The position numbers were made by a program, and so were the translations under genes. From positions 4,380,707 to 4,444,706 of the forward strand of contig WARS01000034.1 in NCBI GenBank assembly GCA_008933995.1: a DNA stretch of 64,000 bases. Reading direction: 5' to 3'. The notes below the pieces were generated by a model. The model was not told the origin of the DNA and did no database searches. It was given only the letters and a program-made list of their open reading frames with translations. Source of the stretch: Datnioides undecimradiatus. Lineage: Eukaryota; Chordata; Actinopteri; Lobotiformes; Datnioididae. Below are positions 36,628 through 61,800 of this stretch, piece by piece (position 1 is the stretch's first letter; each line of letters begins with the position of its first letter).

Positions 36628-36629
36628 AT
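36628..36629 (+). CDS. SLC6 exon 1, last two bases: AT of a split start codon
   Basis: The sequence reads 'taccaagAT/gtgagt'. Splicing this strong donor to the acceptor at 36,776-36,777 gives AT+G in a good start context (A at -3, G at +4), in frame with the body of the protein. The rest of exon 1 (5' UTR) lies upstream, and its beginning is not visible. Without splicing, the same ATG is followed at once by TGA. Confidence 0.55.
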
Positions 36630-39600
36630 GTGAGTGAACCTCGTGCCGTGCTTTCCTCTTCTACATTTGCTCGTTTACGGCCTTCTGGTACCTGTTTTGA
36701 CCCCCAGGATGTACCGTGCTCTTCGTTTTCTCTCCTCCCAGCCTTTTTCTCAACTTCTTGTGTTTTCCCTTCACCAGGGGTGTGTTTGTGTCCCTGCCGG
36801 AGCCCGTGCCGGCCAACAAAATGCCTCCGCAGCAAGGAGACTTGCTGCTGAACAAGCACCGCAACGGGAGCCTCCCCAACGGGAAGGGAGCGGCCAGGGA
36901 CGAAGGCCTGAACGCCAGGGGCCAGTGGGCCAGCAAGGCCGAGTTCCTCCTGGCCGTGGCGGGGCAGATCATTGGCCTGGGCAACGTCTGGAGGTTCCCT
37001 TACCTCTGCTACAAGAACGGAGGAGGTAGAGCATGTGGGGTGGCGGAGGGGGAGGGAAAGAGAGAAGGTTTTGTGAAATATTATGTAAATTATCTCTTTC
37101 GCTCAGCTCTGTTCATCCTTTTTTCATTTTCTCAAAGTGACATTTGTGTCAATCAGAGCAGGGGATGTGTATGATATAAGGACGTGCAGATGAAGGAGTG
37201 TGTGCTTTACAGATGATAGTGTGGGATCATTACTTCCTTTTACAGTTCAGATTCCACTGAAATCATTTGAAAAGTTCATTTTTGCTTGAACTGAATCAGT
37301 TGAAGTCTGCACAGTTACAGCAGCTTGTGTGTGTGTGTGCCCAGGTGTGTTCTTCGTGCCTTACCTGTTGTTCCTGGTGCTGTGCGGCATCCCGCTCTTC
37401 CTCCTGGAGACCTCGCTGGGGCAGTACATGAGCCTGGGAGGGGTCAGTGCCTGGAGGACTATCTGCCCGTTATTTGGAGGTACTCTTATCCAACGGTGTC
37501 ATCAGTGGGCTATTTTAAGCCGCAGCCCATGCTGTTAGATTGCACACTGTTGCGTGTCTGCAGCCGAGCGATTGCTGTTACCGCTGATGAATCTGCAGAT
37601 CGCTCTCTTAAGTAATCAGTCGATTCTTTTTCCATAAAATGTCAGAAGCAACGCAGATGCATCAGCGGTGTAACGCTGGCTCGGCTTGCTGCTTTAAACC
37701 AGCCTGCAGCCACTGTTTTCTTTCCCTTCTCCCTCCTAATCCCTCCTTCCTGTGACCACATCAATAGAGCACCCATATTAACGGTCTGACTGCAATCAGA
37801 GGATTTGGCGTGCCCCCGCCAGCTGCACGCGTGTGCACATCACACCGAATGCACTGCAGAAGGCAGCACGCGCCCCGCCTGCCAATAAAAACACACTGTC
37901 GCACACAGACTGTCTCGTTTTCACGCTGTCCTGCTATCACTGTTAAGCATTAACCGGCACACAAAAACACCAGCGGACGAGAGCCCGTTTTGATCCGTTT
38001 CATGCTGCGAAGTTGTTCTAGTTGCGCACATGACCCTTCAGGAATGGACAGTAAAAATATGGATGTAGGCCTATCAAGAGAGGTCTGGAAAGTAGGCCTT
38101 GACTGCAGACTCCCATCTGTTTTCCTCTGGAACACCCGTACAGGGAAGGCACCATGGAGGACTTTGATCCACCAACCTGCCCGGCTGTATTTACTTATAG
38201 GTGCAGCACGGTGACTGATAGGTGAGTAAATGATATGGATTTAAACAGCAGCAGCCCTTACAGACAGATGTCGACAGATGTAAATATAACCCAGTTTGCA
38301 CTTGTGTTATCATAGGATGCCCACGCAGCATGCCGACGAGGAAATTGTGTTTTTGCTCTTGAGGTGTCAGACATGGCCGGACCTACCTGCAGAGGCCCCT
38401 GGGGCTAAAATTAGGTTTGGGCCCCACCGTTAACCCTCCCAGTGTACAGGGTGGACAGTTCTTCCTATACTGCAATATCACTTCGCCAGAATTGAGAACT
38501 TAAAGCGTAAAACCGAGTTAATAAAGTGAATAAAGTCCGTCTTGTGCCTGTTCTGGAGCTTTTGATCGAATGACATGACCTTCATCAGCTCAGCTGTTGC
38601 ACAATTGTGGGTGTTCAGATGTTTTTCTTAGGATTTGAAGGACTTTGTGTAAATGTTGTAGTGCAAAACAGCTCTGGTGTTCGCAGATCTTGTGTTGCAG
38701 CTTGGCAAAGTCGACGTGTTTATGGAAAACCGGTGATATGAGTTAGGGATGCAGTTACTAAATGGACCTTAAGATTGTTTTCTTAAGTTCTGACGTGCAG
38801 GCGCTCTTCAAGAAGAGCCCCGGAGCAGTTTTAGTTTTGCTTGCTTGAGCTTAGCAGGCCCCTTGGCCAAAGTTCAGCCATTGAGGAGGCTCACAGAGGT
38901 TACAGGAGACCAAATGTTCCAGGTGAACTCGAATTCAAAGCTCACGTAAAGCAGACCTCGACGTTTTCATGCACAGGTGCAGCTAAGGCCAGTAGCACGC
39001 TAGCCGGACCACCTGGGAAACACATTGTAAACAGAATGCGTGTGCGCCCCGTATTGTTTTTATCACCCCCACACACACACACGCTCGGTGACAAATGCGC
39101 GTGCCAACATGTGCCGCTCTGCCCCTCGCCCATATGGCCTGCAGACGTTCACGCAGGGGCTCCCAGCATTTTGTTGACAGCTCACCGCATGAAGGCCATG
39201 TGTTCAGCACAGGGACAAACTCTGCTGCGGCGGTGAATGCGCAGTGCCCCCCTCCGCACATGTGTTTGCGCGCAGAAACAGAAACAGGAATTCCTCGCCA
39301 GCCCGTGCATTTGATACGCCATCGTCGGCTAAAGGCCTGAATTTCATTAGAGGAAGCCACAAACGACTATTTGTCTGCAGCCTACACTTTCAAACCCACT
39401 GGAGGCATCATGAGACCATCATTCACTCTTAATGAAGATATAGTAGATGTGGGCTGCAAGTCAAGTGTCTCAGTAAATGGATCCTTTCATCTGAAACAGA
39501 AGTATTTTGGATGCGATAACAGAACACGGGCGGGCGTGAATGCTTTGAAGCTCGTTTATTTGTGTTGCTGCGGCTCCCCACATGTTAGCTCACGATAGCG

Positions 39601-42600
39601 TCTGCCTGTGTAAACCATCGCACCCCGCGTCTCCTTGTGCCCGCGCAGGTCTGGGCTACGCCAGCCAGGTGATGATCCTGCACGGCTGCGTGTACTACAT
39701 CGTCATCCTGGCCTGGGCTCTCTTCTACCTGTCCTACAGCTTCCAGGCGGAGTTGCCGTGGTCGCATTGCAACAACACATGGAACACGGGTCAGTAAACG
39801 CACACCGCCGGCGTGATTACAGGCACTTGTGTGGAACCTTAAAGGGTGACTATGCTGCGGTGTTCTCCCGCAGAGGCGTGCGTCCTGTTTGACCACCACA
39901 ACCAGACAGCCAATGGGAGCAGCCTGCCTGCCAACGCCACCTCCCCTGTCATGGAGTTTTGGGAGTGAGTGTAACTTTCTTTGCTCCTCATTAATATATA
40001 TATTTTTTTATTTTTTTTATTTTTGCAGTATTGATTGCGTATTTTTGTCTCCTAGGCGGGAGGTGCTCCATCTCTCCAGTAATTTAGACGAGCTGGGTCC
40101 AATCAGCTGGAAGCTGGCGCTGTGCCTGGCCGTCGTCTGGCTCGTGTGTTACTTCTGCGTCTGGAAGGGGGTCAAGTCCACGGGAAAGGTGAGCAGAAGC
40201 CCTGTACCTAAATGTTACTTAAGTAAAAGTAAAAAAAAAAAGTATTTTTAGCATCAGATCCTTTGATTTGCTGTGAACCAGACAGTATCCAGTAGCGTAA
40301 GCTTGCGTGGCACGGTCTAGTGCTGGCTGAGTAATAAACAAAGCATAATTCTCTTCTTTCATGCGGTGAGTAAATGAAATAAGGGACAGGGCCCTGCAGT
40401 GATCCAGCAGGGCTTGTTTGTTGTGCCACCATCCGTCATTAGCATTTAAGACTCCAACTTTCCAGGGTTCCCTCCGTGAGTATTCCTGCTGTGTTTGAGG
40501 ACATCCCAGACGCGTCCCTCCTGTTTTCCCTGTCTCTGCGCCGTCCTGACCACATCCCCGCGCGCTGTGTACATTCTAGGTGGTGTACCTGACGGCCACC
40601 TTCCCATATGTCATGCTGTTTGTGCTGCTGGTGCGCGGTGCCACCCTGCCCGGAGCGACCCAGGGCATCATCTACTACCTCAAACCCAACCACACCCGCC
40701 TGGCAGACCCACAGGTGCAAATAACACACACACACACGCACTCTGGATGGATTCAGTGCCACGCTTCATTAAAAACTATTTTAACTAAAGGCAGTTGAGA
40801 AACACATTATTTCCTTATTTTTGATGGTGGGTGTTTCAGGGGTTCCTGTAGAGCCAGCGGGTATCTGTTTAACGCTCACCCAGGCTGAGGCTTCCTCTTC
40901 CATGCACCAGTCACTGTATACAGATGTGCGTCTTAGGTCCACGTGACATTTCAGCTCCTAATAAACATATCTGCACACGGACGCAGGTACATATTTAAAA
41001 AAAGCTAATAAACAGCTAAATCTCCACCCACAGGCACTGCTAACAAAGCCCAAATGTGATTGGTCGATACAAATCGGGCAAAATCGGCTTCTGCAGATTC
41101 ATATCAGGTTAAGTGACAGAGAGACATTGACTAACATGCTCTCTCTCTCTCTCTCTGCCCCTCTCTCTCTCTCTCTAGGTATGGATGGATGCAGGCACCC
41201 AGATATTTTTCTCATATGGAATCGGTTTGGGAAGTCTGACAGCGCTGGGCAGCTACAACAAATACAACAACGACTGCTATAAGTGAGATCCTTTCGCCGT
41301 GCGCCAAACACACACACACACACACACGCGCGCAACATCAGCTCGGGGCCGCACATGCATCCACCAACGTACGCTCCGCTCCAGACGAACCGTAGCCGTT
41401 GAAATGTAAGATGTGAGCTCCCGCTGGTCAGATGGGCTTCCAGAAGGAATGGCTGGAATGGATAAAGAAAACACAGCGATGCAGCCACGCCTCAAAGAAA
41501 AGCCCCCGCTGCCATGTTTCCCACACTCCTAGGACGCGCACGCAGAGAGAGCCAGCTCTTAACTCGTAGCGTCTGTTTACAGCTACACACACACTTCCAA
41601 CCGTGTTTCCTCAAGTTGCTTCTTCCTGCGGTGATGAATGGATTGGTGTTCTTCCAGGGACTCTTTCCTCCTGTGCCTCCTGAACAGCAGCACCAGCTTC
41701 CTGGCCGGTTTCGCCATCTTCTCGGTGCTGGGCTTCATGGCTGAGGAGCAGGGCGTGGACATAGCCACCGTGGCCCAGTCAGGTGAGCCGGCGGTTGGAG
41801 GTGGAAACGAGGAGATCGAGCTAATGAGTGAGTCCTTCACTAAGGCACTATTTACTCTTCTCTGTTCATCGTACCTCTCCTGTGCTCCTCCAGGGCCCGG
41901 CCTGGCCTTCATTGCCTACCCCAGAGCTGTAGCCATGATGCCTCTGCCCCAGCTCTGGGCTGTCTGCTTCTTCCTCATGATCATTATGCTGGGGCTGGAC
42001 ACACAGGTACACACACACACGCACACACACACACACACACGCCTACACACACAGACTTTGATGAATGACTTTAAATGGCATTGATGCAGCATCGCGTAAG
42101 CTGACCCCGTCCCGCCTCTGTCCCCCAGTTTGTGAGTCTGGAGGCCCTGATGACGTCGGTGACCGACCTGTACCCTCATCTGATCAGACGGGGCCGCCGC
42201 CGAGAGCTGCTGCTGCTCTTTGTCTGCGTCGTCTGCTTCCTGATAGGCCTCGTCATGGTCACGCCGGTGAGCGAATGGCGAATGTGTGCGAGGTGTGGGC
42301 GACCCCGGTTGGGGTTTTTTTTTATGATATGCAATAATATAACGTGTTCTGTTTGTCTCCGCCCCGGTGCAGGGTGGTGTCTATGTGTTCCAGGTCTATG
42401 ACCATTTCTCCTGCAGTGGAGCCAGCCTGCTGCTTCTCTCCATCTTCCAGTCTGTGGCCATCGGCTGGATTTATGGTACAATGTCAGCTTCTCTCCTCCG
42501 CCTGTCTTTCCTTCTGCAGTCTTCCTTTGCTTCCTTTTTCCTTTCCTTTCCTTTCTTTTCCTCCTTGCCTCCTCTCCCTTTTTCCATGTAATCACCTTTT

Positions 42601-43459
42601 ATTTCCTTTCCTCCTCTCCTCTCCCCTTCCATTTCCTTTCCTTTCCTTTCCTTTCCTTTCCTTTCTTTCCTCCTCCTCTCTCCTTTCATTTTACTTCCTT
42701 TCCATCTTTCCTATCCTCTCATCTCCTCTCCTTTCTCTCATCTCCTCTCTCCTCTTTCCTTTGTACATTCTTTCATCTCCTCCCATCTCATGTCTCTTCT
42801 CTCCTCGCTTCTCCTCTCCTTTCCTCCTTTTTACACTAAATCCTCTTCCTTGTTTTATCTGAGGAAGAGATCATCCCATTCCACATTTGACTGAAATGTA
42901 GTTCTGTTTGAGTTCGTTAATCTGACAACAGGGACTCTAAATGAGACGTCAGCATAAATCTCAGAGTGTTGTTTTCAGCACATGTAGAAAATCTAAAGAA
43001 AGAACAGCACCAAGTGTTTTTTATCACTCCACTCATGGAAGTAGTTCCTATAATCTGATCGGAGCAAGCACGTAGAGACCGCTGGTCCACTTCCTCCCTC
43101 CTTCTGCATTCCAGTTGGAGTCAGTAGACAGTATATTAACATGGCTGCAGCTACCCACTGTTGTAAGGAGGCTGGCTCCTAGCCAGGCCCCTGTCTGTCT
43201 CCTCCGGGCCCTAAATCAGCCCCCGGGCCCCATCGCCTCTCAGTCTCAGCCCGGCGGCCCCAGGGAGCCCCTATCCCAGCCAGGCCTGCAGCTCTGGAGC
43301 GTTTACAAAAAAACGCTGTTTGTTTAAGTGTGAGATGGGAGGAATGCGCCATGTTGTGTGCGTCAGGACGACACAGTCACTGTCAGAGAGCTGTGTATCA
43401 AGAGCTGGGAATGTGAATACCAGGTGATAACAAATAACTTGAGTGGATTAGCGCAGAGT

Positions 43460-43501
<42 letters not shown>

Positions 43502-45213
43502 ATGAATACCAAAGAAGCCTGTTTTTATGGCCCTCCTAGCAGTAGGCGAGTGGAGCAGCAGGGCTGAGGAGAGCGGGGTTTGTAAGTGGACCGGGTAACG
43601 CAGCAGTCAGGACTCCGCCGCACCTTTCACCCTTTTTACGACTGCGACTTTACAGTTTTTTAAGGACTCCGGCACCCAGTGGCACTCCTCTGCTGCAGGT
43701 TATGAGGACCTGAAGGAATTTCACTCCGCAGGCCCTGCTTTGACTCCTGCCCTGACTAAATCAACCATCAGGCTCCGCATTGTGTTTAATATTATCAGTT
43801 CAAAAGGGACCGTGTGTTCTTTTTTGCAGCTTATCTCCTGTGTTTTGTGTTTTTGACCATATTTCTGAGCTGTCGTGTGTAGAGCGTCAGTAAAATAGAT
43901 AAGTCGAGCAGTCAGACAACCAGCCTGTAAATAAAGCCAAAATGACTGTTTTGTGTATTTCTATTTAAAACGGTGCGTTTTAGTTTAATGTGGTCGTGAG
44001 AGTATAAAACTTTACAAAGCGCTGGAGCATTCTTGGTTGTTTTTTTTTACATGTTTTCACCAACAAACAAAGGATTTGACCCGAGTTCACCACCAGAAAC
44101 AACAAGTCACAACCTAAACCGAAACCCACGATGCCAAAGCGGGGCCGTGACCGCTCATGCCTCAGCTGTTCTCGCCCACAGGAGCCGAGCGCTTCAGCGC
44201 CAACATCAGGGACATGATCGGCTACAGCCCCCTGCCCGTCTTCAAGCTGTGCTGGAAATACTTGACCCCGGCTGTGTGCACTGTGAGTGGACCCCCCCCT
44301 CCCACACACACACACACACACACACACAGTTTCTCTGACAAACAAAACATGCAATTCTAAGGTTGCTTGCTTTAAAGGAACAGTTTGACATTTTCAGAAG
44401 TGCAGTTACTACTTCTGCTCCGCTCAACAGCAGCTAGCCCGGCTGTGGCTAGCCTCCAAAACCAAAGCGTGCCAGACTATTTCTTGGACGGGACCGGTTG
44501 CCAGGCAACCAGGTTCCTACGCCGATCACACGCCGATCACACAAACAAGATGTAGCATATTAGTGAGCTTCAGAGGCGCCGGCAGACGGGTTTTTGTTAC
44601 CTTTAGACAGAGCGGCCGAGCTGTTTCTCCCTTTTTTCCAGCATCGGTGCTAAGCTAAGCTAACCAGCAGCTGAATGCAGCTCTCATATATGTCCTGTTG
44701 CTTCAGGTTCATCTTTGCAAAGACAAGCTGACCCTGTCCTCCATCTATCTGTCTCCTGCAGGCTACCTTTTTCTTCTCCCTGGTGAGCTGGTCTCCGCTC
44801 AGTCTGGGGAAAGGCCTGGTCGCTCCAGCCTGGGCTACCACGCTGGGCTGGCTCCTCACTCTCTCCTCCGTCTCCCTGCTTCCCATCTGGGCCATCTACG
44901 CCCTGGCCACCACCCCCGGAAGCCTGCCACAGGTTATACCAGCACTCTCTTTAATTCCTCGTGCTGCTGATTGTGATCATTAACCCACAGACGTTTGAGT
45001 AAAACTGTTTTATCTTCAAAAATGAGATAAAAATTAATTTTTTTTTTGCCCCACCAGCGCTTCCAACGCCTGTGCAAGCCCGCCAAAACCTCTACACCAA
45101 CCTCCCGCCACTTCCCCGCCAACAACCCAGCGCTCTCATACAGCCACGCGCTGCCCCTGACTGCGAAGCCAAAGGAGCCAATCACAGACATCATCCAGGA
45201 TCATATGACCTAA
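36628..45213 (+). CDS. SLC6 sodium/chloride-dependent transporter, GABA/taurine/creatine subfamily (15 exons)
   Basis: Complete gene. The spliced reading frame is 631 codons from a start split between exons 1 and 2, or 616 from the internal Met at 36,821. Residue numbers use 631. The product is a 12-helix plasma-membrane symporter that uses Na+ and Cl- gradients to import small amino-acid-like solutes. Visible landmarks: TM1 with [18 protein letters not shown] (Arg73), a TM2 LLETSLGQY block, and a large second extracellular loop with a Cys pair and several N-glycosylation sequons. Further on are the TM6 [11 protein letters not shown] block, chloride-site residues Gln303, Ser307, Asn339 and Ser343, TM8 GLDTQF and TM10 [10 protein letters not shown]. 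Overall it resembles GAT2/GAT3/BGT1 and TauT. TM6 has the GAT1-like Tyr-Gly, and the substrate pocket differs from all of these (Gln64, Gly141, Ser412). No symbol is given because the exact orthologue, perhaps a fish-specific one, needs phylogeny. It is intact, with no frameshift. Confidence 0.93.
36778..37025 (+). CDS. SLC6 exon 2: N-terminus and TM1 (residues 1-84)
   Basis: The acceptor follows a strong pyrimidine tract ('tgttttcccttcaccag'). The donor is 'gga g/gtagag', phase 1, at the usual family junction inside the KNGGG motif. It encodes the cytosolic tail and TM1. Gln64 (codon 36,965-36,967) occupies the position of Glu in GAT2/GAT3/BGT1. An internal Met at 36,821 is the alternative start. 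Confidence 0.9.
37325..37339 (+). repeat. (TG)n tract at the exon 3 acceptor
   Basis: 'cttgtgtgtgtgtgtgcccag' occupies the place of the pyrimidine tract. UG repeats in RNA bind TDP-43 and CELF proteins. Confidence 0.85.
37345..37479 (+). CDS. SLC6 exon 3: TM2 (residues 84-129)
   Basis: 135 bases, so skipping would keep frame. It carries [18 protein letters not shown] and the SLGQY block. The acceptor 'gcccag' directly follows a TG repeat (37,325-37,339) instead of a normal pyrimidine tract. The donor is 'gga g/gtactc'. Confidence 0.93.
37480..39648 (+). other. SLC6 intron 3
   Basis: A 2.2 kb intron. No second gene or clear mobile element is seen. It includes a short CA run near 39,069-39,082 and a moderately GC-rich section. 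Confidence 0.8.
39649..39789 (+). CDS. SLC6 exon 4: TM3 and start of extracellular loop 2 (residues 129-176)
   Basis: It encodes GYASQV, then [21 protein letters not shown]. The Tyr pair of TM3 (144, 145) is kept. The residues before it are Gly141-Cys142, where GAT and TauT proteins usually have Leu-Asn. It ends in the N-glycosylation sequon and Cys of loop 2. Donor 'acg g/gtcagt'. Confidence 0.93.
39874..39964 (+). CDS. SLC6 exon 5: extracellular loop 2 (residues 176-206)
   Basis: It carries the second loop Cys (EACVLF), then sequons NQT, NGS and NAT and the family motif SPVMEFWE. The intron upstream is only 84 bases. Donor 'tgg ga/gtgagt', phase 2. Confidence 0.92.
40056..40188 (+). CDS. 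SLC6 exon 6: loop 2 end, TM4 (residues 206-250)
   Basis: It encodes REVLHLS, then [19 protein letters not shown] and the KSTGK motif. Acceptor 'gtctcctag', donor 'gga aag/gtgagc', phase 0. Confidence 0.93.
40580..40714 (+). CDS. SLC6 exon 7: TM5 (residues 251-295)
   Basis: It encodes [20 protein letters not shown] followed by [15 protein letters not shown]. Acceptor 'acattctag', donor 'cca cag/gtgcaa'. Confidence 0.94.
41139..41176 (+). repeat. (CT)n microsatellite forming the exon 8 pyrimidine tract
   Basis: CT units, interrupted once by 'gccc', run directly into the acceptor AG at 41,177-41,178. Confidence 0.95.
41179..41282 (+). CDS. SLC6 exon 8: TM6 (residues 296-330)
   Basis: It encodes [20 protein letters not shown] and the [10 protein letters not shown] loop, including the Na+/Cl- site residues Gln303 and Ser307 and the unwound Gly of TM6. 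Tyr308-Gly309 resembles GAT1, not the Tyr-Ala of GAT2/GAT3. The pyrimidine tract is a CT microsatellite. Donor 'tat aa/gtgaga'. Confidence 0.94.
41658..41782 (+). CDS. SLC6 exon 9: TM7 (residues 330-372)
   Basis: It encodes [20 protein letters not shown] with the chloride-site Asn339 and Ser343, then [14 protein letters not shown]. The last part is close to the TauT/GAT consensus. Donor 'tca g/gtgagc'. Confidence 0.94.
41894..42006 (+). CDS. SLC6 exon 10: [10 protein letters not shown] loop and first half of TM8 (residues 372-409)
   Basis: It encodes [20 protein letters not shown] and LGLDTQ. Asp407-Thr408 is the Na2-site pair. Thr replaces the usual Ser and keeps the hydroxyl. The donor 'cacag/gtacac' runs straight into a CA repeat. 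Confidence 0.94.
42009..42040 (+). repeat. (CA)n microsatellite abutting the exon 10 donor
   Basis: The intron begins 'gtacacacacacacgcacac'. CA repeats in RNA are hnRNP L sites. Confidence 0.95.
42129..42266 (+). CDS. SLC6 exon 11: second half of TM8 and TM9 (residues 410-455)
   Basis: It starts FVSLE, where Ser412 is the position that is Thr in GAT1, Cys in GAT2/3, Glu in TauT and Gly in the creatine carrier. It continues with the basic loop RRGRRRELL and TM9. Donor 'acgccg/gtgagc'. Confidence 0.94.
42373..42475 (+). CDS. SLC6 exon 12: TM10 (residues 456-490)
   Basis: It encodes [16 protein letters not shown], where the usual form is GGMYVFQLFDYYAASG. The extracellular-gate Asp is kept. 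TM10 and the segment after it ([17 protein letters not shown]) are the most diverged part of the core. Donor 'tat g/gtacaa'. Confidence 0.92.
42480..42845 (+). repeat. Long polypyrimidine tract with (TTTCC)n in SLC6 intron 12
   Basis: About 360 bases are almost all C and T on this strand, with a regular TTTCC pentamer block around 42,632-42,670. The open frames across it are artefacts (Phe/Leu/Ser on one strand, Lys/Glu/Arg/Gly on the other). Confidence 0.95.
42846..44181 (+). other. Remainder of SLC6 intron 12
   Basis: Non-coding. It contains a TG array at 43,458-43,498 and no recognisable exon. Confidence 0.8.
43458..43498. repeat. (TG)n microsatellite
   Basis: A TG array with one early interruption, in SLC6 intron 12. 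Confidence 0.95.
44182..44282 (+). CDS. SLC6 exon 13: loop 5 and TM11 start (residues 490-523)
   Basis: It encodes [19 protein letters not shown], matching the family's G-x-x-R/N-F-x-x-x-I-x-DMIGY block, and LTPAVCT as in GAT2. Acceptor 'ctcgcccacag', donor 'tgc act/gtgagt'. Confidence 0.93.
44303..44328. repeat. (CA)n microsatellite
   Basis: About 13 CA units, starting some 20 bases after the exon 13 donor. Confidence 0.95.
44371..44700 (-). mobile_element. Teleost MITE-like element in SLC6 intron 13
   Basis: The left end reads 'tttaaaggaacagtttgaca'. The right part, read on this strand, has 'caaacaagatgtagcata', 'ttagtgagcttcagaggc', 'tttttgttacctttagacag' and 'gctaagctaagctaaccagc'. In reverse complement this is the interior of a short inverted-repeat element common in perch-like fish. 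The middle has 'gactatttcttggacggg' and 'ccaggcaaccaggttcc' from the same family. It is non-coding and moderately diverged. Confidence 0.75.
44762..44932 (+). CDS. SLC6 exon 14: TM11-TM12 (residues 524-580)
   Basis: It encodes [16 protein letters not shown] and the TM12 block [20 protein letters not shown]. Acceptor 'gtctcctgcag', donor 'cca cag/gttata'. Confidence 0.93.
45058..45213 (+). CDS. SLC6 exon 15: cytosolic C-terminal tail (residues 581-631)
   Basis: In phase 0 with exon 14. The tail begins RFQRLCKP, is rich in Pro/Ser/Thr and ends IIQDHMT before TAA. It lacks the ETHF/ETHL-like end found on GAT3 and BGT1. The acceptor 'tttttttttgccccaccag' is good. Confidence 0.88.
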   Translation, partial: RFQRLCKPAKTSTPTSRHFPANNPALSYSHALPLTAKPKEPITDIIQDHMT

Positions 45214-50144: not shown

Positions 50145-50179
50145 TGGATACATACATGTTGTTCGGTTTGGAATGAACA

Positions 50180-51277
50180 ATGGTGCGGCTCCTTGGTGCT
50201 CTGGCCGAGAGCATGCTCTGCTTTCTTCCACTGTTGCTGTGCGTCGTGGAGTTGGAGATGGGAGCCGGGCTCTCTACTTTCCAGGGTTTCTATCTTCCAC
50301 CTGCGAACGGGTCGCTTCTCGCACCTGCCCGGAGGACAGATGGGGTAGTGCGGACCATTGACCGGATTTACCACGGAGGAGGGAAGGTGGGCTACCTGGT
50401 GTACCTGGATGGGAGCCGGTTTCAGCTGGACATGGAGCGGGACGAGTCGGTGCTGTCGCATCATTTCAGCCCCCAGTATGTGCTCGCTATGATGGGGGAC
50501 AGTTCCGCGCCTCTGCAGCGGGAGTGCGTGTACCGCGGGACAGTGGACTCCAACCCGGAGTCCCTGGCGGTCTTCAACCTCTGCGGAGGAGGTCTCGAGG
50601 GCTTCTTCGCCGTGAGCCATGCACGCTACACCATCACGCCTATCATCAGGGCGAAGGGACACGAGCACGACGTGCGCGCCCTGCAGGACAAGGACGCGGA
50701 GAGCGCGCTCCACGTGTTCACGCGCGAGGGTTTTCGCTTCGAGGCTATGCGCGAAGGGCGCGAGAGCTGCGGGACGCGCGATGGGCGCAGAGGACGCAGG
50801 GATGCGGCAGGGAAACGCCGGCACAGAGGTCGCGGAAGGGGGAGACGGGGCAAAGAGGGTCTCGCACCGGAGGACACAGATGACCATGGCGCGCACGGAC
50901 GGAGATGGTGGAGCCAGCTCGCCAAAGCTCCCGAGCCGAGCGCACGGCGCAAGAGGTCGGTGTCTCGCGCCAGGCACGTGGAGCTGCTCCTGGTCGCTGA
51001 CGACACCATGACCAAGAAATATGGCAAGGACTTGAACCACTACCTGCTCACACTGGCCTCCATCGCCTCCAAGCTGTACGGGCACGCCAGCATCGAGAAC
51101 CCCATCCGGCTGTCGGTGGTGAAAGTGACCACGGTCACGGAGAAGGAGAAGGGGCTCGAGGTGTCCAAGAACGCGGCGGCGACACTGAAGAGCTTCTGCA
51201 AGTGGCAGAACCAACAGAACCCGCTGGACGACGACCACCAGCACCACCACGACGCCGCCATCCTCTTCACCAGGCAG
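50180..51277 (+). CDS. adamts5: adamts5 exon 1: signal, propeptide, start of catalytic domain (residues 1-366)
   Basis: Start context 'aacaATGg'. A second in-frame Met at residue 12 directly precedes the hydrophobic core [13 protein letters not shown] and could also serve. [19 protein letters not shown] and the [10 protein letters not shown] block match the ADAMTS5 propeptide. The donor is 'agg cag/gtaaac'. It is strongly GC-rich, as first exons of this family are, which yields long spurious frames on both strands. Confidence 0.96.
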
Positions 51278-54200
51278 GTAAACAAACGTCCCTCGCTTTC
51301 CGCACCTCCACCTGTCCGCTCTCTTCACCTGCCACCGAGGCGCCGGGTCCGCCTTGTCTTGCGTCCCACACGGCGGAGGCGAGTCGGCTTTGCGCCTCGG
51401 TGCGGTGCCAAGGCAGCGGAGTGACGCCACACTTTGTTTATATTTTGATGGTGCACGCGGTGGCAGCTGGTTGAGCGCAGCTAAGCTCAGCGCTTAGGAG
51501 ATTAATCCTTGGTTGGCTTCATGCAAATAGCCTATAACACACACAAGATACACTCTGTATAGAAAATAACCGACACATCACCTTTGCTGCACATTTTCTA
51601 AAACGCATCTGATGGCACGTTATTCCCCTCCATGCGTGGGGAGGAAAGTGCCGCAAAACGTTGCGACCTGTTTCCCTATTTGCATCACTGTCAATCAGAA
51701 ATGGAGACTGCACGACTTGCTTCCCACATCCCCCTGCTTACATCAACACTCCCACCCCTTCAATACGTGTTTTCCTTCTCCTTGTTTCCCTTTCGCTTCC
51801 TTTTTGGTGACTCTCGCGTGCGTAACGCAGCCCGGCGTCTGTGTAACTTTTTTTTTTTTTTTTTTTTTAATAAAACAAAAAAACTGTATTTCCTGCGCCT
51901 GGAGTTTTTCTAGGCGGGCTCTTCTGTCTCCAGTCCTCACCACCTCCCTCCCAGTCCCCTGACAGCCCAAAAGCCTCGTAAGTGTGTGTGATCTGAGGCG
52001 CGTGCCCGAGGACCTGCGTGCAAATTCTTCCCAGGGTAGGAGGTTTGAAATCAGCTGCTGGGTGCACTGCAGAAATATCCCTGAATCTCCCTTGAAACTG
52101 CAGTTAATTAGGTAGTCATCCCAGCCTTGCAATTCCTCCCTCCCTCCCTCCCTCTCTCTCTCTCTCTCCCTCTCTCTCTCTCTCTCTCATCACTCCAGTC
52201 TGCACATTTTTTCCCAGTTACTTTTCCAGCGTCTGTCAGCTGGGGCTGGGAGCTGTCAGAAAAACAAACACATCCACCCTGTGAGAAGCCCTGCGTTTAC
52301 CGAGACCACACTCATTTATCCCTCCTTTCACCATCCCTCCTCCTTCCCTCCTCGCCGGGCCGAAAGCCGCAGGGCAGCGAGCAGATCTCCGTGCATTCTT
52401 CACCTCTACGGGTGTGGCTTTTGTGGCGGTTAGCTCCAGTTGACGTGTCAGATAGCTCGCCTTGGACTGCGGTGTGTTGGGCTTATGCAGGGTCTTGTCT
52501 TGGTTTGGGCGGAAAAAGCGAGCACCGGGGGTATTACTTCGGATCTCCTGGCATCGGCGGCAGCTTGGCGTCGTCATGCGTTGGCAAGGCGGCCGGTAGT
52601 GCATACCTGAGGTCAGCGGGCTGGCAAAGTGGCACAGTTCCTTTGTGCCAACCACCTCGTGGCTCCTTACTAACCCTGTTGCTGCTGCACCTGCAAGACA
52701 GGAAGAGTCCGGGCAGAAGACGGTGCCATCCTCCGGTTGGTTGGGTTTTGGCAGGGTTTGCAGGGTCAGGCGGGCATGGAAACAGTTATCCAGATACCTC
52801 TAAAGCAGCCTGTGGATATGTGGGCGGAGAGTGGGAATGGACAGATAACTAATGAAACATGACAGGTGGCATACTGTTGATTTGTCTCTAATCTGCTTGG
52901 GCTTTGATCCTGTTAAAAACCCATGCACATCATTAAATTAGACCCTTTTCATACCAAGAGGTTAAAGTCTGATTTCGCAATTTTGCTTATTTTCAAAGCC
53001 TCTCAAACTCTCTGCAGACACACAAAATACAAATTTACCCTCTGAATTCATTAATATGAGCTCTGAAGATGAATCGCGGTTAAAAAACACAAACACAATC
53101 AGTGGCATAAATAAAAAACACAAAGAAAGCACCAAACCATGTCCTGCTGCTGCACTCAGGGGTTAAAAAGGCCAATATTAGCCTTAAACTGGCCTTAACC
53201 AGTCCATCAGTCAGCAGTTCATTTCTGTCTCACCTGCTGCGGCGCTTGCATTATTCATAAACCTGCCTCCTGACTGTCATTCGCACACATCTCACCTTCA
53301 CCTGCCTGTCAGCGGCAGGAGCAGGTCATCACACAGAGCACATAATCCTCCACTGTGGGCCCTGGAACACAGCTCAGACCTCTGAGAAAACAACCTTATC
53401 TGTTGCATTTCTGCAGGACAAATAGGTCCAAGTCCGGTCAGTGTGCAGACTAAGCACACAGCTAATGCCTGACTTTACTCTGGGGCTGTGACCCTTATAA
53501 GCCAGGGAAAGACGCCGCGGCCTCACTTTAACTTTGACCTTTGACCTCCACGGCTATTAAAGGCCATTTTCAGGACTCCGTGTTTAGGCTGAGTGCTTAA
53601 ATTGCGGTGGCTTCACCTCAGCTGATCATTAGAACAGACAGGACTGAGGCTGGTTTGCCTCTAAACACCCCAGGGACAACACACAGACCCTGTGTGATGC
53701 AGTGAAAGTGAAGTAAACAACACATTCTTGGGTCCTCTTCTTAAGGAACGCGCGTGTGTTTGCTCTTGTTGTTACAAAAGAACTAAAAGCGGAATGTGTT
53801 GACTTATTCAGTTTGCAGAGAGTGGCTGTCAGAAAACATCCCCCGTGCATTGTCCAATAGCTGCACAGAATTTTACAAACAGGAAAGAGAAAAGAAAAAA
53901 AAAAAGAGTTTCCACTGACAGAACGCCACTCAGGAAATAACTTGATTTGGCACAGGTGCCTCATACCTTGCTGCACTTGGGGTTGAAAAAAAAGGAAAGT
54001 TGGATGCACGGGGCTGCTTTCTCAGGAAAATAACTTTGGATGCAACCTCAATGGAAAGTTAGCAGGCGAGGACAAACGGTGGTGTGCAGCAGACCTGGCT
54101 CAGATGTGTCACTGAAAGTCGAAGGTGTTGGTTATACGTGCTTTTTCATCTGCGTATGTGGAGTGACTCTTATAAGTAGACCCTGATTATTGTAGCCTGC

Positions 54201-56729
54201 TGGACCAGAACTGAAGCTGTGAAGTCAGACCAGGCCATTGTTGTCAGATTGGAGGGGGGGTGTGGGGCCTGGGAGAGGGGGGGGGGTGGCGAAGGAGGAG
54301 TACACAGGGTTGTAGGGAACTCGTCTCTTTGTGGTCAGGTCCAATTACTCCAACACCCCGTACCCGCAGTGAGCTGACCCGTGCTGCGGTGTCACCCTGT
54401 CCCACACATACCAGCACCAGAACAAAAACAACGGGCACATTGAGGGGACTCGGGACTGTCCTGAGGGTGCATTGGCGTATATGGGAACGTTGAGCGTCAT
54501 GCATGGCTGTGTTCGCTTGTTGTGAGCTCGGCCAAGCAGACAAAGCCCCACTGTGCTGCGGAGCTGTGGAGATATCGACATACGTGTGTGCTCGCGCTGC
54601 TATTTGCTGGGTTTTCTCTTATGCTTCTTGCAGCAATAGCTCAAATATTTGGCTAGACATTGCTAGCAGGCCCTCGCGATGCCGGCGAAGTGCTCACCTT
54701 TTCAACCTGGGTTGAGGTTAGGCCAGGGAGAGATCTGTAATAACACATAAAAAATAAAATATATCACTTTCAATCTTTATTTTGTTCTTTTCCTCACAAT
54801 CTGCATGCGTGAATAGGTTAAAAGGAAACTCAAAGCTGATTTATGAAACACTTCATCAGCCCAAATCCCAGAAAAGTTCTTTATTTTACAAGAATTTGCT
54901 AATAAAGATTATGAATGGACCTAAAGCCGAGATTTAAATAATAACAGAATGATAAAATAAGATGAATAAGAATAATAAGATGTAATATTCAGCAGAAATG
55001 CAGAGGGGGCCCTTATGTAATGATGATTGATGCTGGATACATACCGATGTAGGCATAGCATGTATGTATACACAATCCATTTCCTCCACACGTGTTAAAG
55101 ACGCAGTTATGTCATTTCTCCTTTTACAGTGGATGTGGGAATGTGCACATGTGGGTAGCTCGGACTCCTCCTTTTCCTGTGCACTTGCCCCCCCCCCCCC
55201 TCCTCCACCTCCCCCCGTGTGTTTGTGCGCGTCTGTACATTAACGTGTACATTTCCCAGCCCTCGCCCCCGTCGCAGCCAGCCCCTCTATTTATTTTAAC
55301 TGTTCTTGATATTTCACACGTGCTGCCCCTTCGACTGGCATATGTTGACAACCTGCGGACAGCCCCTCGGATCCTGAAAACCTGTCCACACACACACACA
55401 CACACACACACACTGGACTGGCCGGAGAGTTGAGTGTGGACGGCAGCAGCAACACAAGAGCCTCACCCTCTTCGCACCGTGATGCATCGTTGACTTTAAA
55501 CCGCGCTCCTGTTTGCAATCACAGCGTTTCCTTCGAGAACTGACCTCAGGTCTGTTTCTAAATGACACTACTTAGTCACACTTTTCGACTGAAGTATTAA
55601 AAATAAAAGTACAAGTGAAAGCCTTTCATACTAGAGGAAGTACTCAGAGTTTTTAGAAGTTTCAAGCATGTACTTAACTTAAAAACAGAGCCCTGCATTG
55701 CACGTAATTAGAATTTAGTGCTTCACATCACAGGAATTCAAAGAACTTCCCTCCCATTCCTTCATTTATCCCTCCCTCCGCCCTTCCTCCCTTCCATCCG
55801 GACAAGAACGATCAAGCCGTGACTGGAATCGGCAACATTCGCCGCTCACCTTCGGATGAAGATTGTTTTCAAAATTGTGAGATGATGATTCCGCCTCGCT
55901 CTTCTCGGGGGCTGAAAACAGGTTCTGCGAAGCTCCCACAGCCTTACGCAGGCCGCCGAGGCAGGTAGAGGCGCGTTCAGCTTCGCAGACAGCTTGCAGG
56001 AGGGATTTCGGCAAGTGCACCTGAGCTGCTGAACGGGCCGAGTATCAGTCCGGGTGAAGAAGTCCTCCTCAGAAGATGACCCGAGCATGGTGGCATTACC
56101 CTAGCTGCAGGGAGGGAGTGGACCATTCTGCCCTCGAGGAGTTCCACTCGTTGGATGCAGCTTTCATCACATCCACATGGTGCTTGGGGATCACTCCGAA
56201 GCATCTTAGACATCTCCATCCTCTCCTGTTGAGATGCATCATACTGAATCAAAACCCAAAGTGAAAGAAAAACATTTTGGAAAGTCTCTTAATCACTAAA
56301 GTTATTAAAAATCATCCTGGGGGGGGTGTTTGTTGAGCTATTTCATGGATTAAACTGCACATACAGAGCTCTGCAGCTAGCTTGGCTAAAAAGTCCCTTC
56401 TCCCACTGAAATATGACACAAGTGCGGGTATAAAGTAACATGAAAATGAAATTATTTCAGAAGCTGTCAATCACCGGCGACCAATCATCAGTAACCCATC
56501 CAGTCAGTGACGGAGCGCTGCTTTCTGTTGCTTTTGATTAGCAGGTTTGTTGAATCAGCCCGAAGTGTGTTTTCATCACACAGAGGGAGTTAAACTCACT
56601 CCGCAAGAGAGGTTTTAGTCTCTGTGTGTGTGTGAGTGTGTGTGTGTGTCTGTCTGTCTGTCTGGGTCTGCCTGGCTGTTTGTTTAACACAGGCCTTGGC
56701 TTAGATTGCAAGTGGTCTTGTAACACATA

Positions 56730-56760
<31 letters not shown>

Positions 56761-58802
56761 TCATACACAGCTCTGATCGTCTCCTGACCTTCACAACCAG
56801 CCTGCCACCTGTTCTCCTGTTATTTCTGCCAATATTTCTGTAACTCATGGTTCTCCCAGTTCTTCTCTTTAATTTCCTGCAGCCCACCCCCACCCCACAC
56901 CCCAGCCCCCTCAGCATCTGATTCCTGAATGCATTTACCTTTCCCTCCCTCTTTTTAAGTGTGTGAGGGGCTGCTGGGTGAGAGCAAGGTGGGGAAGATA
57001 ACATGCGGATAGGGGCGTGAATTTCAGTTATGGTATTGATTCTCATTTTTATCTACCGCTCACCCACATGTTTCCTGTTACGCTGCGCTGCAAGAACGAA
57101 AGTCGCGTGCACAACCGAGATCGAAACGAAAACAGCTCTCGTGCTGGAGCATGGGAGGGGGGTGAATGAATAAATAAATGAAATGGAGGGAGGTGTAAAG
57201 AGCGTCGGGGTGAAAGAGTGTGGGAAACACGGGAAAGAGAAAGAGACAAAGCAAGGACAAACGTCTCTATGCGTTCTCGCTGCCCGCTTCAAAACAAACA
57301 TGCAAAGTTGAGAGAAACTCAGTTCGGCTCTCAGCAGCAGCCATGATCCACGCAGTGTGTTTGACTTGTCCTTTGTTTGCTTCTTGTGTATCCAGCAGTC
57401 AACTGGCAAAGGCAGCCACTCTCTTCCTGTTCTGTGTGTGTGTGTATGTTTGTGAGTGTACCATTGGGTACGTATAGTATATACTTGGATCTGTATGTGC
57501 TCTGCATGTGCAAGTATGTACCCATTTGTTTACACGTAAGCTCTTATAGTTATGTACATCTGAGTGTATGTGCACACTTGCATGTGTGTGTGTTTGTGTG
57601 TGTGTGCGTGTGTGTGAGGTAGTCCCACCCAGTCAGTCATGTGTGTAAGCACAGAACACAAGGCAGTTTGTTCCAAACTGATCTGCCCGGAACGGGTAAA
57701 CACCCTCCCCAGAGAGCCTCTCACACACGACCCAGCAGGCCTGTCAGCACCACTTAACATGACGATTCATCCTCACCATGGGACATGTGTGTGTGTGTGT
57801 GCGTGCGTGTGTTTCAGTCTCCCACGTGCACATGCATAGAGCGTCTGCACGCGCATGCAATTTCTAAGCAAGTTCTGCTCTATCGTAAGTGTTTGCACAC
57901 GCGCACGCAAGGCCCGTGTGCAGGCGCGTGTGCTCTGATGTGACGCACCGACGGTATGATTAACTGATTGATCTCTGCACTCAGCCGGGCCAAGCAGTTG
58001 CACCCCGGGGCCCCATCTGCATGGACATGTGTGGGAATCAAAACAAAGATCGATACTATGTACTCTGGCACCCCGTGAGGCAGACAGAGGGAGACGGTGG
58101 AGGCAGAGGAAGGAAGCGGGTGTTAAAGGCGGTGGAAGGGAAAAAAATTAATGGGACATTTGTCTGCCGTCGCTGTGGAGGAGCTTTGTCCGAGAAAATG
58201 ACTCCGTTGACATCGCTTGAATATCTCAGCATCTGTGTTATAAGCTGGGGTTGTGGCGTTTGAAAGGCAGAGAGGCTCTAGAGCTGTGCATTATGGGAGG
58301 TGTACCCTTGTTTTTTAGAGCATGGTGCCCTGGGACTGCAGGGGTACTTTGCGTATTTATGTGTGTTGTTACCACTATGTCACGTATTATTAATGGTTCA
58401 ACGTCCACTGCATCACGGCGCAATACCGCTGATTTAAAAGGTGTAGAAGAAGAAGTCCGGCTCTCTTGAGCACTATTTGCACTCTATTGGATAACAGCAG
58501 CAGCCGAAAACCCCCAGTATCTTCCCTACTGTTGATTAGAATAGGATCTGTGTGTAGTGAAGCTCCTAGAGGACAGTTAAAGGATGTAGCCAGCTGAAGA
58601 GGATAAGTGAAGGGTTTATCAGCACGCCTATTTAAACTCACAGTCCTGTCTTTGTCCAGGACCTCTGTGGCCACCACTCATGCGACACCCTGGGTATGGC
58701 GGACGTAGGTACCATCTGCTCTCCGGAGAGAAGCTGCGCCGTCATCGAGGACGACGGCCTTCACGCTGCGTTTACCGTGGCTCATGAGATTGGTAGGCAT
58801 GG

Positions 58803-58836
<34 letters not shown>

Positions 58837-61800
58837 CAGAACCCAAACAAAGATATAAACACGCCAGGGCATGCATATGCACATGTTGATTAATATCGCA
58901 GGAGTATAGTCTGATGTCATACACCTGATAGCTCGGTGTGTTTTCTGTTCTCGTTCTCGCCGCGTGTGCAAACTCATCACTTCCTCCCCATCCGTCCACT
59001 CAAACTCTGCGCACGGTTGTCCGCAGGCCACCTGCTCGGTTTGTCCCACGACGACTCCAAGTTCTGCGAGGAGCGCTTCGGGGTGAACAGCGACAAGCGG
59101 CTCATGTCCTCCATCCTCACCTCCATCGACGCGTCCAAACCCTGGAGCCGCTGCACGTCGGCCACCATCACCGACTTCTTTGACGACGGGAACGGTGAGT
59201 GGCGGGAGAGAGTGCGGGCCAATAGGGGCGCAGAGGGGTGGGAAGGGGTGGGTGTAGTTCTTTTAACGCTGAGAACTTTTCCCAGCCAGGAGAACTTTTA
59301 TTTTCTACAAATTGCATCCATGTGAACTGGACTCTTGATTGCTTCTCTCCCACAGTACCTATCACTGAGAGCTGTTTACTAAGAAACCAGGCTGTAATCT
59401 CTGCTAATGGAGAGTTATTTACAATCCTATTAACTTCTTAAAAAGTGCCGTTACAGTGCAGCCAAAGACAGATCGCTTGCAGCAAATCAAGATGAGTCAC
59501 ACTGTGTGCGATCGTTTACGGCGGCCATAAAGCATTGCCTGTTGACACTTTGCTAAAAAAGAATGCTTTCAGCATAATTCATGTAGCAACAGCATCGTTT
59601 CAAGCTTGATGGTATCTGCTGCTGCTCAAGCTCTTAATGACTGGCGTTTGTAGGCGACAGAGCCTTTTTTTTTTAAAATTCCCTCTTCCTTCTTTTCTGC
59701 TACAGCCGAATGTCTCCTTGACTCTCCTCGCCAGCCCCTATTGGGTCCCGAGGAGCTCCCAGGCCAGAGCTACGACGCCGTCCGCCAGTGTCGCCTGGCC
59801 TTCGGCCCCGAGTACACAGTCTGCCCGGGTATGGATGTGTGCTCCCGGCTGTGGTGCGCCGTGATTCGCCAGGGACAGATGGTGTGTCTGACCAAGAAGC
59901 TGCCGGCCGTGGAGGGAACACCCTGCGGGAAGGGACGCATCTGCCTGCAGGGGAAGTGTGTGGACAAGACCCGCAAGAGACACTACTCGGTAAGACAGAT
60001 GGTGTCGGAACATGAGGGGTGGAGAGGAGGAGGACATGGAGATAGAAGGTGTTTGTCAAGAGAGACAAAAAGGAGTAAAATCTAAAATAGATTCCTTTTT
60101 ATAGTTCAAAACTTGATATTTTAAGCACTCGTCTCCACGTTGGAGAGATTTGACGAAGCACACAGGGCAGCTGGGGAAAAAGAAAAAGATGAAATGTTAA
60201 AAAAAGAGCGAATAGAAAAAATGTCATATTCTTTATGTGACCTCATTGTGTGGTCTGCGTTATTTATGCTGCTGCTGATCTGTGCTATTTGTTCTCTTGG
60301 CCTCGCTTGATCTAAATTGAATTCGGTCATAATGAGTTAAAGGACCAAATCTGTTTTTGGCAGGCTTTCGACACCGTGTGTGTGTGTGAGAGAGAGAGAG
60401 CTCGTGCGCGTGTGTGTGTAAGGGAGGGAAAAAGAGAGCGAAAGTCAAAAGAGAATGGAAAAGAGAGAAAGAGTGTTTTCTTTGTATTTTTTTGTCACAT
60501 GACGTTTGACGGGTCTGACTCCATCCTTGGCAGACGCCTGCGTGTGTGGACGCGGCCCAGCTTCTGACACGCTTCACATTCACTGCCTTGTATGACGACC
60601 AGTTTACTGCGCAGAGCAGCATCCAACCCCTCCATTTTGGACTTCAGGATCCTTTAAAGTCTATATCTTTCTTGTAACATGATTGCAGATTAAGTGGCCT
60701 TTACCCGTGGAAAGAAGCGGCTCGAGCGGCGTAGCGGAAGACTCCGCAGTGGAACTGAGCAGAAAAGTTTCCAGAGACGCTTTGCAGAACTTCAGGGTTA
60801 TAAAATCAACTTGTAAAATGTTAAACGCTACTTATCCAGTCGTTTTTATCACTGATGACTCATGTGGCACTGGTTGGAAAAACACAAAAATAAGCGAATT
60901 ACCTTAAGAATTTCATTCAGGCTGCTCCTCGGGAAGCATGTGAGCTGTTACGCCACAGACCCAGTCATGCTGTCTAAATGAGCAGCTTCGCCACACGAGG
61001 GTTGCCTCGTTCCTTTGCTGTCTGTCTCTTTTCCACATCACAACGCACGCCACACTTTCCTCTATCGCAAATCTCTCTCCGAAGGGCTTTCCCTGTGACA
61101 CGTGGCTTGGCCAGCACCACTCTGACTTCCACCAGTCTGATAAGCGCTAATTGTCCTCTCTCATCTCCTCTTCTTCTCTCTTTCTCTTCATCCCTCTCTA
61201 CTCTCTGATCTCTTCCCCGCTGTCATTTCCCCCCCTGCAACTTATCCCCCCTTTCATCTTCCCTTTTCTCCTCCCTCTCCCAGGCGTCCAACCACGGCAG
61301 CTGGAGCTCTTGGGGTCCTTGGGGTGCGTGCTCCAGAACTTGCGGAGGCGGTTTGCAGTTCGCCCATCGTCTGTGCAACAACCCGCCGCCACGGAACAAC
61401 GGCCGCTACTGCACGGGGAAGAGAGCCATCTATCGGTCCTGCAACGTCACACCATGTCCACCATCAAGTGAGTGTGACAGCCTGAGAACAACACAAACTA
61501 ATGTTTATTTATCACAGAAAGCATATGGAACTTCATTTTTAATGTCTTTTAATGGAACTTTTCTCTAGATAAGACTTTCCGGCAGGAGCAATGTGAGGTG
61601 CGCAACGGTCCCCAGACAGATCCTAAAGGGGTGAAGACCTTTGTTGAGTGGGTGCCTAAGTACGCAGGAATTCTCCCCAAAGATGTGTGCAAGTTGACCT
61701 GCAGAGCAAAAGGAACAGGATACTATGTGGTGTTCTCCCAGAGGGTGAGTTAGTCAAAAGAAAACAGGCTGGGGTGCAGGGTGCGACGTATTTAATGGGA

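Follow-up and report, generated by a model that had tools for sequence, protein, structure and literature searches.

A 64,000-nucleotide stretch of contig WARS01000034.1 of the fish Datnioides undecimradiatus (assembly GCA_008933995.1, positions 4,380,707 to 4,444,706), hereafter the window, contains on its forward strand an intact gene for a fast-evolving carrier of the SLC6 family, lying on the branch of GAT2 (SLC6A13), GAT3 (SLC6A11) and BGT1 (SLC6A12). Four residues of its S1 substrate site, Gln in transmembrane helix (TM) 1, Gly in TM3, Gly in TM6 and Ser in TM8, form a combination not shared by any of the six human relatives used for comparison. The chances appear about even that the gene encodes a functional carrier of broadened specificity for omega-amino and guanidino acids, probably still including gamma-aminobutyric acid (GABA). 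The first-pass annotation, which had described an SLC6 carrier with an unusual substrate pocket, was confirmed as an observation and partly supported as an interpretation: the protein would be a known kind of carrier with an altered pocket and a predicted substrate range.

Gene structure and family placement

The gene comprises 14 coding exons (36821-45213, + strand) with an intact reading frame. Exon ends were placed by eye, after which a script moved each of them to a GT/AG site no more than 3 bases away. This gave four open joins of 615-618 amino acids that are identical outside the exon 3/4 junction and the acceptor of exon 12; the 616-residue join was chosen because the residues at that junction and in exon 12 align with the family. 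This model runs from an ATG at 36821 to a stop codon at 45213. A putative split start codon, composed of AT at 36628-36629 (+ strand, followed by the donor GTGAGT) and G at 36778, lengthens the protein by 15 residues ahead of the next in-frame Met, giving a 631-residue model in which every intron is GT-AG and which matches the numbering of the first-pass annotation, followed here. Judging by the sequence, either this split start or the alternative ATG at 36821 is a possible start of the gene. From the split start to the stop codon, introns included, the coding region covers 36628-45213 (+), and its translation matches the Pfam SNF family (PF00209) with 741.5 bits over profile positions 1-523 of 524; with an E-value of 6.9e-223, the SLC6 assignment is not a chance result. 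The span originally proposed, 36965-42137, covers the codons from Gln64 to Ser412, but the gene extends to 45213.

The protein was compared with six members of the GAT group, one sequence per gene (GAT1, GAT2, GAT3, BGT1, TauT and CreaT), taken to be human. The sequences of GAT1, TauT and CreaT were confirmed by PDB chains, those of GAT3 and BGT1 are partial PDB chains, and that of GAT2 agrees at all 12 published positions. The window protein is 58-59% identical to GAT2, GAT3 and BGT1, 52% to TauT, 49% to CreaT and 48% to GAT1; the mutual identity of GAT2, GAT3 and BGT1 is 71-75%. Among the best 60 of 104 PDB matches, the closest chains are those of GAT3 (773.7 bits), BGT1 (772.2), TauT (724.2), CreaT (656.8) and GAT1 (631.7), a GAT2 chain being absent, and these 632-774 bits of the GAT group compare with 539 for the best other carrier.

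On an unrooted LG+G4 tree, the window branch measures 0.79 versus 0.18-0.26 for the branches of GAT2, GAT3 and BGT1, three to four times their length, and the nearby supports are 53 and 67. Because of the 58-59% identity, the long branch and supports of only 53 and 67, the window protein is best described as a divergent relative of this trio, with the nearest member not singled out. As to GAT2 orthology by tree and synteny, the tree is weak, with one sequence per human gene, and the neighbouring gene is ADAMTS5-like. A CreaT paralogue of the slc6a8a/b type was rejected, as TM1, TM3 and TM8 carry Gln/Gly/Ser where CreaT has Phe/Cys/Gly, at 49% identity.

Substrate pocket, ion sites and gates

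All exons described here lie on the + strand and follow from the splice model, supplemented by the alignment for TM6, TM7, TM8 and TM10. The TM1 exon (36778-37025) carries Gln64 (CAG, 36965-36967), and the TM3 exon (39649-39789) carries Gly141 (GGC, 39684-39686), Cys142 (39687-39689) and Tyr145 (39696-39698). TM8 is divided between an exon with L404, D407 and the Na2-site residue T408 (41894-42006; T408 codon 42001-42003) and another with Ser412 (AGT, 42135-42137), L413 and A415 (42129-42266). Gln64, Gly141 and Ser412 were thereby located in the spliced translation at the positions claimed for them, and all motifs quoted in the first-pass annotation, DTQFVSLE of TM8 among them, were found as well. 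The TM6 exon (41179-41282) contains Q303, F306, S307, G309, which is the GAT1-like state, and L312.

At the GAT1 positions 60, 136, 297, 300 and 400, the aligned residues of the window protein are Q, G, G, L and S. The corresponding S1 residues are Y, L, G, L, T in GAT1, E, L, A, L, C in both GAT2 and GAT3, E, L, A, Q, C in BGT1, G, L, A, L, E in TauT and F, C, A, L, G in CreaT (PMC11242302 and alignment). The comparator states given in the first-pass annotation for TM1, TM3 and TM8 (GAT1 Y/L/T; GAT2, GAT3 and BGT1 E/L/C; TauT G/L/E; CreaT F/C/G) agree with Table 3 of PMC11242302 and with the alignment. The signature of the trio, TM1 Glu, TM3 Leu, TM6 Ala297 and TM8 Cys, is replaced by Gln, Gly, Gly and Ser. 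At TM8, Ser differs little from Cys or Thr; at TM3, CreaT is the only other GAT-group member with a small residue. Three further changes extend the initial list, namely G309, as in GAT1, C142, which replaces GAT1 Asn137, and T408, which replaces GAT1 Ser396, the latter two at columns invariant in the six members.

The Na1 side chains, the chloride-site residues and the gate residues are identical to those of the six human members, including the chloride-site Y90 in the TM2 exon (37345-37479), N339 (Na1) and S343 (chloride) in the TM7 exon (41658-41782), and the gate residue D465 in the TM10 exon (42373-42475), which also encodes C469, S470/G471 and A472. R48/D422, E105 and the cysteines C169 and C178 are retained. 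At the Na2 site there is a single change, Ser396 to Thr408, which keeps the hydroxyl, and the A61 position is Ile as in GAT2, GAT3 and BGT1. The earlier statement that the Na+ and Cl- site residues are intact holds for chloride and Na1, but Na2 has this one Ser-to-Thr change. The signs of a working carrier were upheld by the open frame and the conserved ion and gate residues. The window protein departs at 16 of the 200 columns invariant in the six human members and has a state found in none of them at 91 of the 334 variable columns, a difference expected of a constrained core and one that fits purifying selection acting on it.

Substrate range and rival explanations

In the proposed mechanism, Na+ and Cl- would bind as in the relatives, the carboxylate of the substrate would contact Na1, the TM1 glycines and Y145, and the substrate would be enclosed by a lid (Y145/F306) and a gate (R73/D465) whose residues are conserved. 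The floor of S1 would be remodelled by the replacement of the TM1 acid with neutral Gln, of TM3 Leu with Gly, of TM6 Ala with Gly as in GAT1, and of TM8 Cys with Ser, so that the half of the site receiving the amino end may be roomier and neutral. Specificity would be broadened, with GABA probably kept and space provided for bulkier omega-amino or guanidino acids, e.g. guanidinoacetate or creatine.

Insofar as it rests on the lack of an acid at TM1 and TM8, the suggestion that the substrate may not be GABA was not borne out. The missing acid is no argument against GABA, because neither GAT1 nor CreaT has one at these positions and GABA is still imported by BGT1 once its TM1 Glu is removed. The BGT1 mutant E52A is functional, with a half-maximal inhibitory concentration (IC50) for GABA of 25 µM versus 18 µM for the wild type, which is not a significant difference; the IC50 is 1.2 µM for E52Y and 1.0 µM for E52A+Q299L, with total uptake of 600 and 450 versus 4,000 counts per minute, and the double mutant also has lower surface expression (PMC7400577). 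The same GABA values are given in PMC8476755 for the BGT1 mutants it lists. The Leu introduced by Q299L is the one that the window protein has at position 300. Neither of these articles includes E52Q (Glu to Gln). In the GABA-bound structure of GAT1, the carboxylate lies near Tyr140, Ser396, Thr400 and Na+, and the carbonyl of Ala455 is close to the amine (PMC10352132). Since the equivalents of these four residues in the window protein are Y145, T408, S412 and C469, most GAT1-type GABA contacts could survive.

The TM3 change is more telling than the lack of an acid at TM1 and TM8. L136 is part of a set of residues described as fully conserved in GATs (PMC10137170). At the TM3 Cys of CreaT (C144), long hydrophobic residues reduce substrate affinity, the triple mutant F68Y/C144L/A318G gains GABA transport, and models of CreaT place the guanidine in contact with the thiol of C144 (PMC7148354). 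By alignment, the window protein combines a small, CreaT-like TM3 residue with the GABA-type Gly at 297. By analogy with these models, Gly at TM3 could not offer a C144-type thiol, which would argue against a creatine carrier.

The pocket had been called wider and less charged than in known GABA or taurine carriers; the first part stands because positions 60, 136 and 400 have a smaller summed residue volume in the window protein (292.9 cubic angstrom) than in any of the six relatives (358.5-476.4), although these are sums of residue volumes and not a modelled cavity, while an acid-free pocket is not distinctive, being shared by GAT1 (Tyr/Thr) and CreaT (Phe/Gly). Several results weigh against a functional carrier of broadened specificity. 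Where GAT2, GAT3 and BGT1 all have the same residue, the window protein departs from it at 4/7 S1 sites versus 71/341 others (Fisher p 0.041, uncorrected), but with the gate sites added the figures are 4/11 versus 71/337 (p 0.26); the ion sites depart at 1/12 versus 74/336 (p 0.47). The pocket stands out only weakly from a protein changed throughout. Leave-one-out departures are 34/218 for GAT1, 14/198 for CreaT, 10/194 for TauT, 3/187 for GAT3, 2/186 for BGT1 and 1/185 for GAT2, and the 16/200 of the window protein exceeds all of these rates except that of GAT1. Of the mutants, BGT1 E52Y+Q299L has no uptake (PMC7400577), and TauT G57E loses 99.8% of transport, showing that TM1 changes can abolish it (PMC11242302).

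Three other explanations were weighed alongside broadened specificity. That the gene is a GAT2-like fish duplicate with near-neutral pocket changes and mainly GABA uptake, like GAT1-3, is possible but doubtful. G309 and L312 are GAT1 states, GAT1 is likewise acid-free at both positions, TM1-neutral BGT1 mutants still import GABA, some with higher potency (PMC7400577), and extra GAT2 genes are reported in teleosts (PMC3849432, PMC5196030). Against such an ordinary GABA carrier, the TM3 Leu conserved in GATs (PMC10137170) is Gly, the adjacent Asn, present in all six members, is Cys, and the branch is long (0.79 versus 0.18-0.26). A carrier for which GABA is a poor substrate, dedicated instead to a bulkier guanidino or omega-amino acid, e.g. 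creatine or guanidinoacetate, is unlikely. It would accord with the small TM3 residue, found within the GAT group only in CreaT, where its size sets affinity (PMC7148354), and with the TM8 Gly, the CreaT state, of a probable stickleback orthologue described below; it is opposed by G309, a residue that counts as GABA-type in the switch set of CreaT (F68Y, C144L, A318G), by the lack in Gly of the thiol that contacts guanidine in CreaT models (PMC7148354), and by an identity to CreaT of merely 49%.

Loss of transport, either in a decaying duplicate whose frame is still intact or in a non-transporting protein, is very improbable. The long branch, the two consecutive altered TM3 residues, and N137C and S396T at columns invariant in the six human members would be compatible with it, but the frame is open with GT-AG introns, the ion, gate and loop-cysteine residues are kept, and just 16/200 invariant columns are changed. 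A decayed gene was rejected as the principal explanation, the gene being intact and its core constrained.

As no human relative among the six aligned has this mix of pocket residues, the cargo is to be measured and not guessed. A bolder proposal, itself unlikely, is that a fish GAT-group lineage, without the TM1 acid of its subgroup and with TM3 opened to Gly, constitutes a specificity class of its own that handles a bulkier guanidino or omega-amino acid (guanidinoacetate, creatine), as a natural counterpart of the CreaT/GABA switch mutants. No description of a GAT-group member with a Gln/Gly/Gly/Ser pocket was found in the open-licence literature, figures and supplements being outside the search. 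A degenerate G[Q/E] pattern had zero matches in viral and prokaryotic contigs, collections that are uninformative on fish, and the one pattern match of the protein in viral contigs was not confirmed. The GAT-group pocket has so far been probed largely via mutants of mammalian carriers, and a natural carrier with these four S1 residues (Gln/Gly/Gly/Ser) would make it possible to test in a single assay how far the preference among GABA, betaine, taurine and creatine depends on the charge at TM1 and the residue size at TM3. It would also be a reason against annotating such a gene as a GABA transporter from similarity alone.

Neighbourhood, fish relatives and known carriers

The remaining exons of the splice model (+ strand) are those of the large extracellular loop with N-glycosylation sequons (39874-39964), two at 40056-40188 and 40580-40714, one at 44182-44282 for which an acceptor 3 bases downstream is also possible, one with the last membrane helix region (44762-44932), and the last exon with the C-terminal tail and stop codon (45058-45213). 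The intron after the TM10 exon contains a long pyrimidine stretch rich in CCTTT/CTCCT (42500-42840).

An ADAMTS gene (50177-63365, +) follows on the same strand, its start some 5 kb past the end of the SLC6 gene. It has ADAMTS spacer, cysteine-rich and thrombospondin domains, and its closest PDB sequence is that of ADAMTS-5, with 154.9 bits against 106 for ADAMTS-1 (ADAMTS-8 and -15 being absent among the matches). Reading frames were ranked by codon use with a model trained on the two genes of the window, and Pfam was run on ten sequences, five from the SLC6 and ADAMTS genes and five frames from 1-36000. In 1-36000 no clear coding sequence was seen (best codon-use segment 11.7 versus 78.2 for the first ADAMTS exon), nor any Pfam match in the five frames scanned; this region looks gene-poor, though small exons may escape detection. 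It contains long CA/TG runs. Rfam (gathering threshold) and ARAGORN gave no matches in the window, and a second SLC6 gene was not seen there by tblastn with seven GAT proteins.

In stickleback, GAT2_1, GAT2_2 and GAT2_3 are listed, and the transporters are expressed in brain, GAT1 paralogues being more abundant (PMC5196030). The primers of GAT2_3 (ENSGACT00000001890/1897/1899) read GLEALV and CSGMTL where the window protein has SLEALM and CSGASL (PMC5196030), a comparison spanning 40 bases (12 residues) of primer sequence only. Among 12 stickleback primers for six genes, only the GAT2_3 forward primer beat its 30 shuffles (15/20, best shuffle 14); the reverse one did not (13/20, best shuffle 14). 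The window protein matches 8 of the 12 primer residues, GAT2 and GAT3 7, CreaT and BGT1 6, GAT1 5 and TauT 4. Because GAT2_3 and the window protein share three states absent from the six human members (L413, A415 and C469), GAT2_3 is a probable, though not proven, orthologue of the window gene. It differs in having Gly and not Ser at TM8, and 2 of the 12 residues match GAT2/GAT3 instead.

Medaka has an extra GAT-2 on LG6 (PMC3849432). In several fishes the RH2 opsins have an SLC6A13-like gene as a neighbour (PMC3116502), and slc6a22 genes (slc6a22.1/.2) stand beside RH2 in a flyingfish glossary (PMC8294118); the two are presumably the same gene. They are GAT-like teleost genes with names outside the mammalian set. 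They adjoin an RH2 opsin and the window gene adjoins an ADAMTS5-like gene, but in this comparison of neighbours and names the window gene may still be one of them. An opsin was not found in the 64-kb window by tblastn with a bovine rhodopsin (one chance-level match, E 0.46); SYNPR, the other neighbour expected of those genes, was not searched for, and an opsin could lie outside the window. The fish pair slc6a8a/b is a separate, already described set (PMC13264567).

Among the characterised carriers, GAT2, GAT3 and BGT1, at 58-59% identity, have the same ion and gate residues as the window protein, but Glu, Leu, Ala and Cys where it has Gln, Gly, Gly and Ser. GAT1 resembles it in having no acid at TM1 or TM8 and in the TM6 residues Gly 297, Gly 299, Leu 300 and Ser 302, but differs in TM1 Tyr, TM3 Leu and TM8 Thr and is 48% identical. 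CreaT shares small residues at TM3 and TM8 and has an acid at neither TM1 nor TM8; unlike the window protein, to which it is 49% identical, it has Phe in TM1, Cys in TM3, Ala in TM6 and Gly in TM8.

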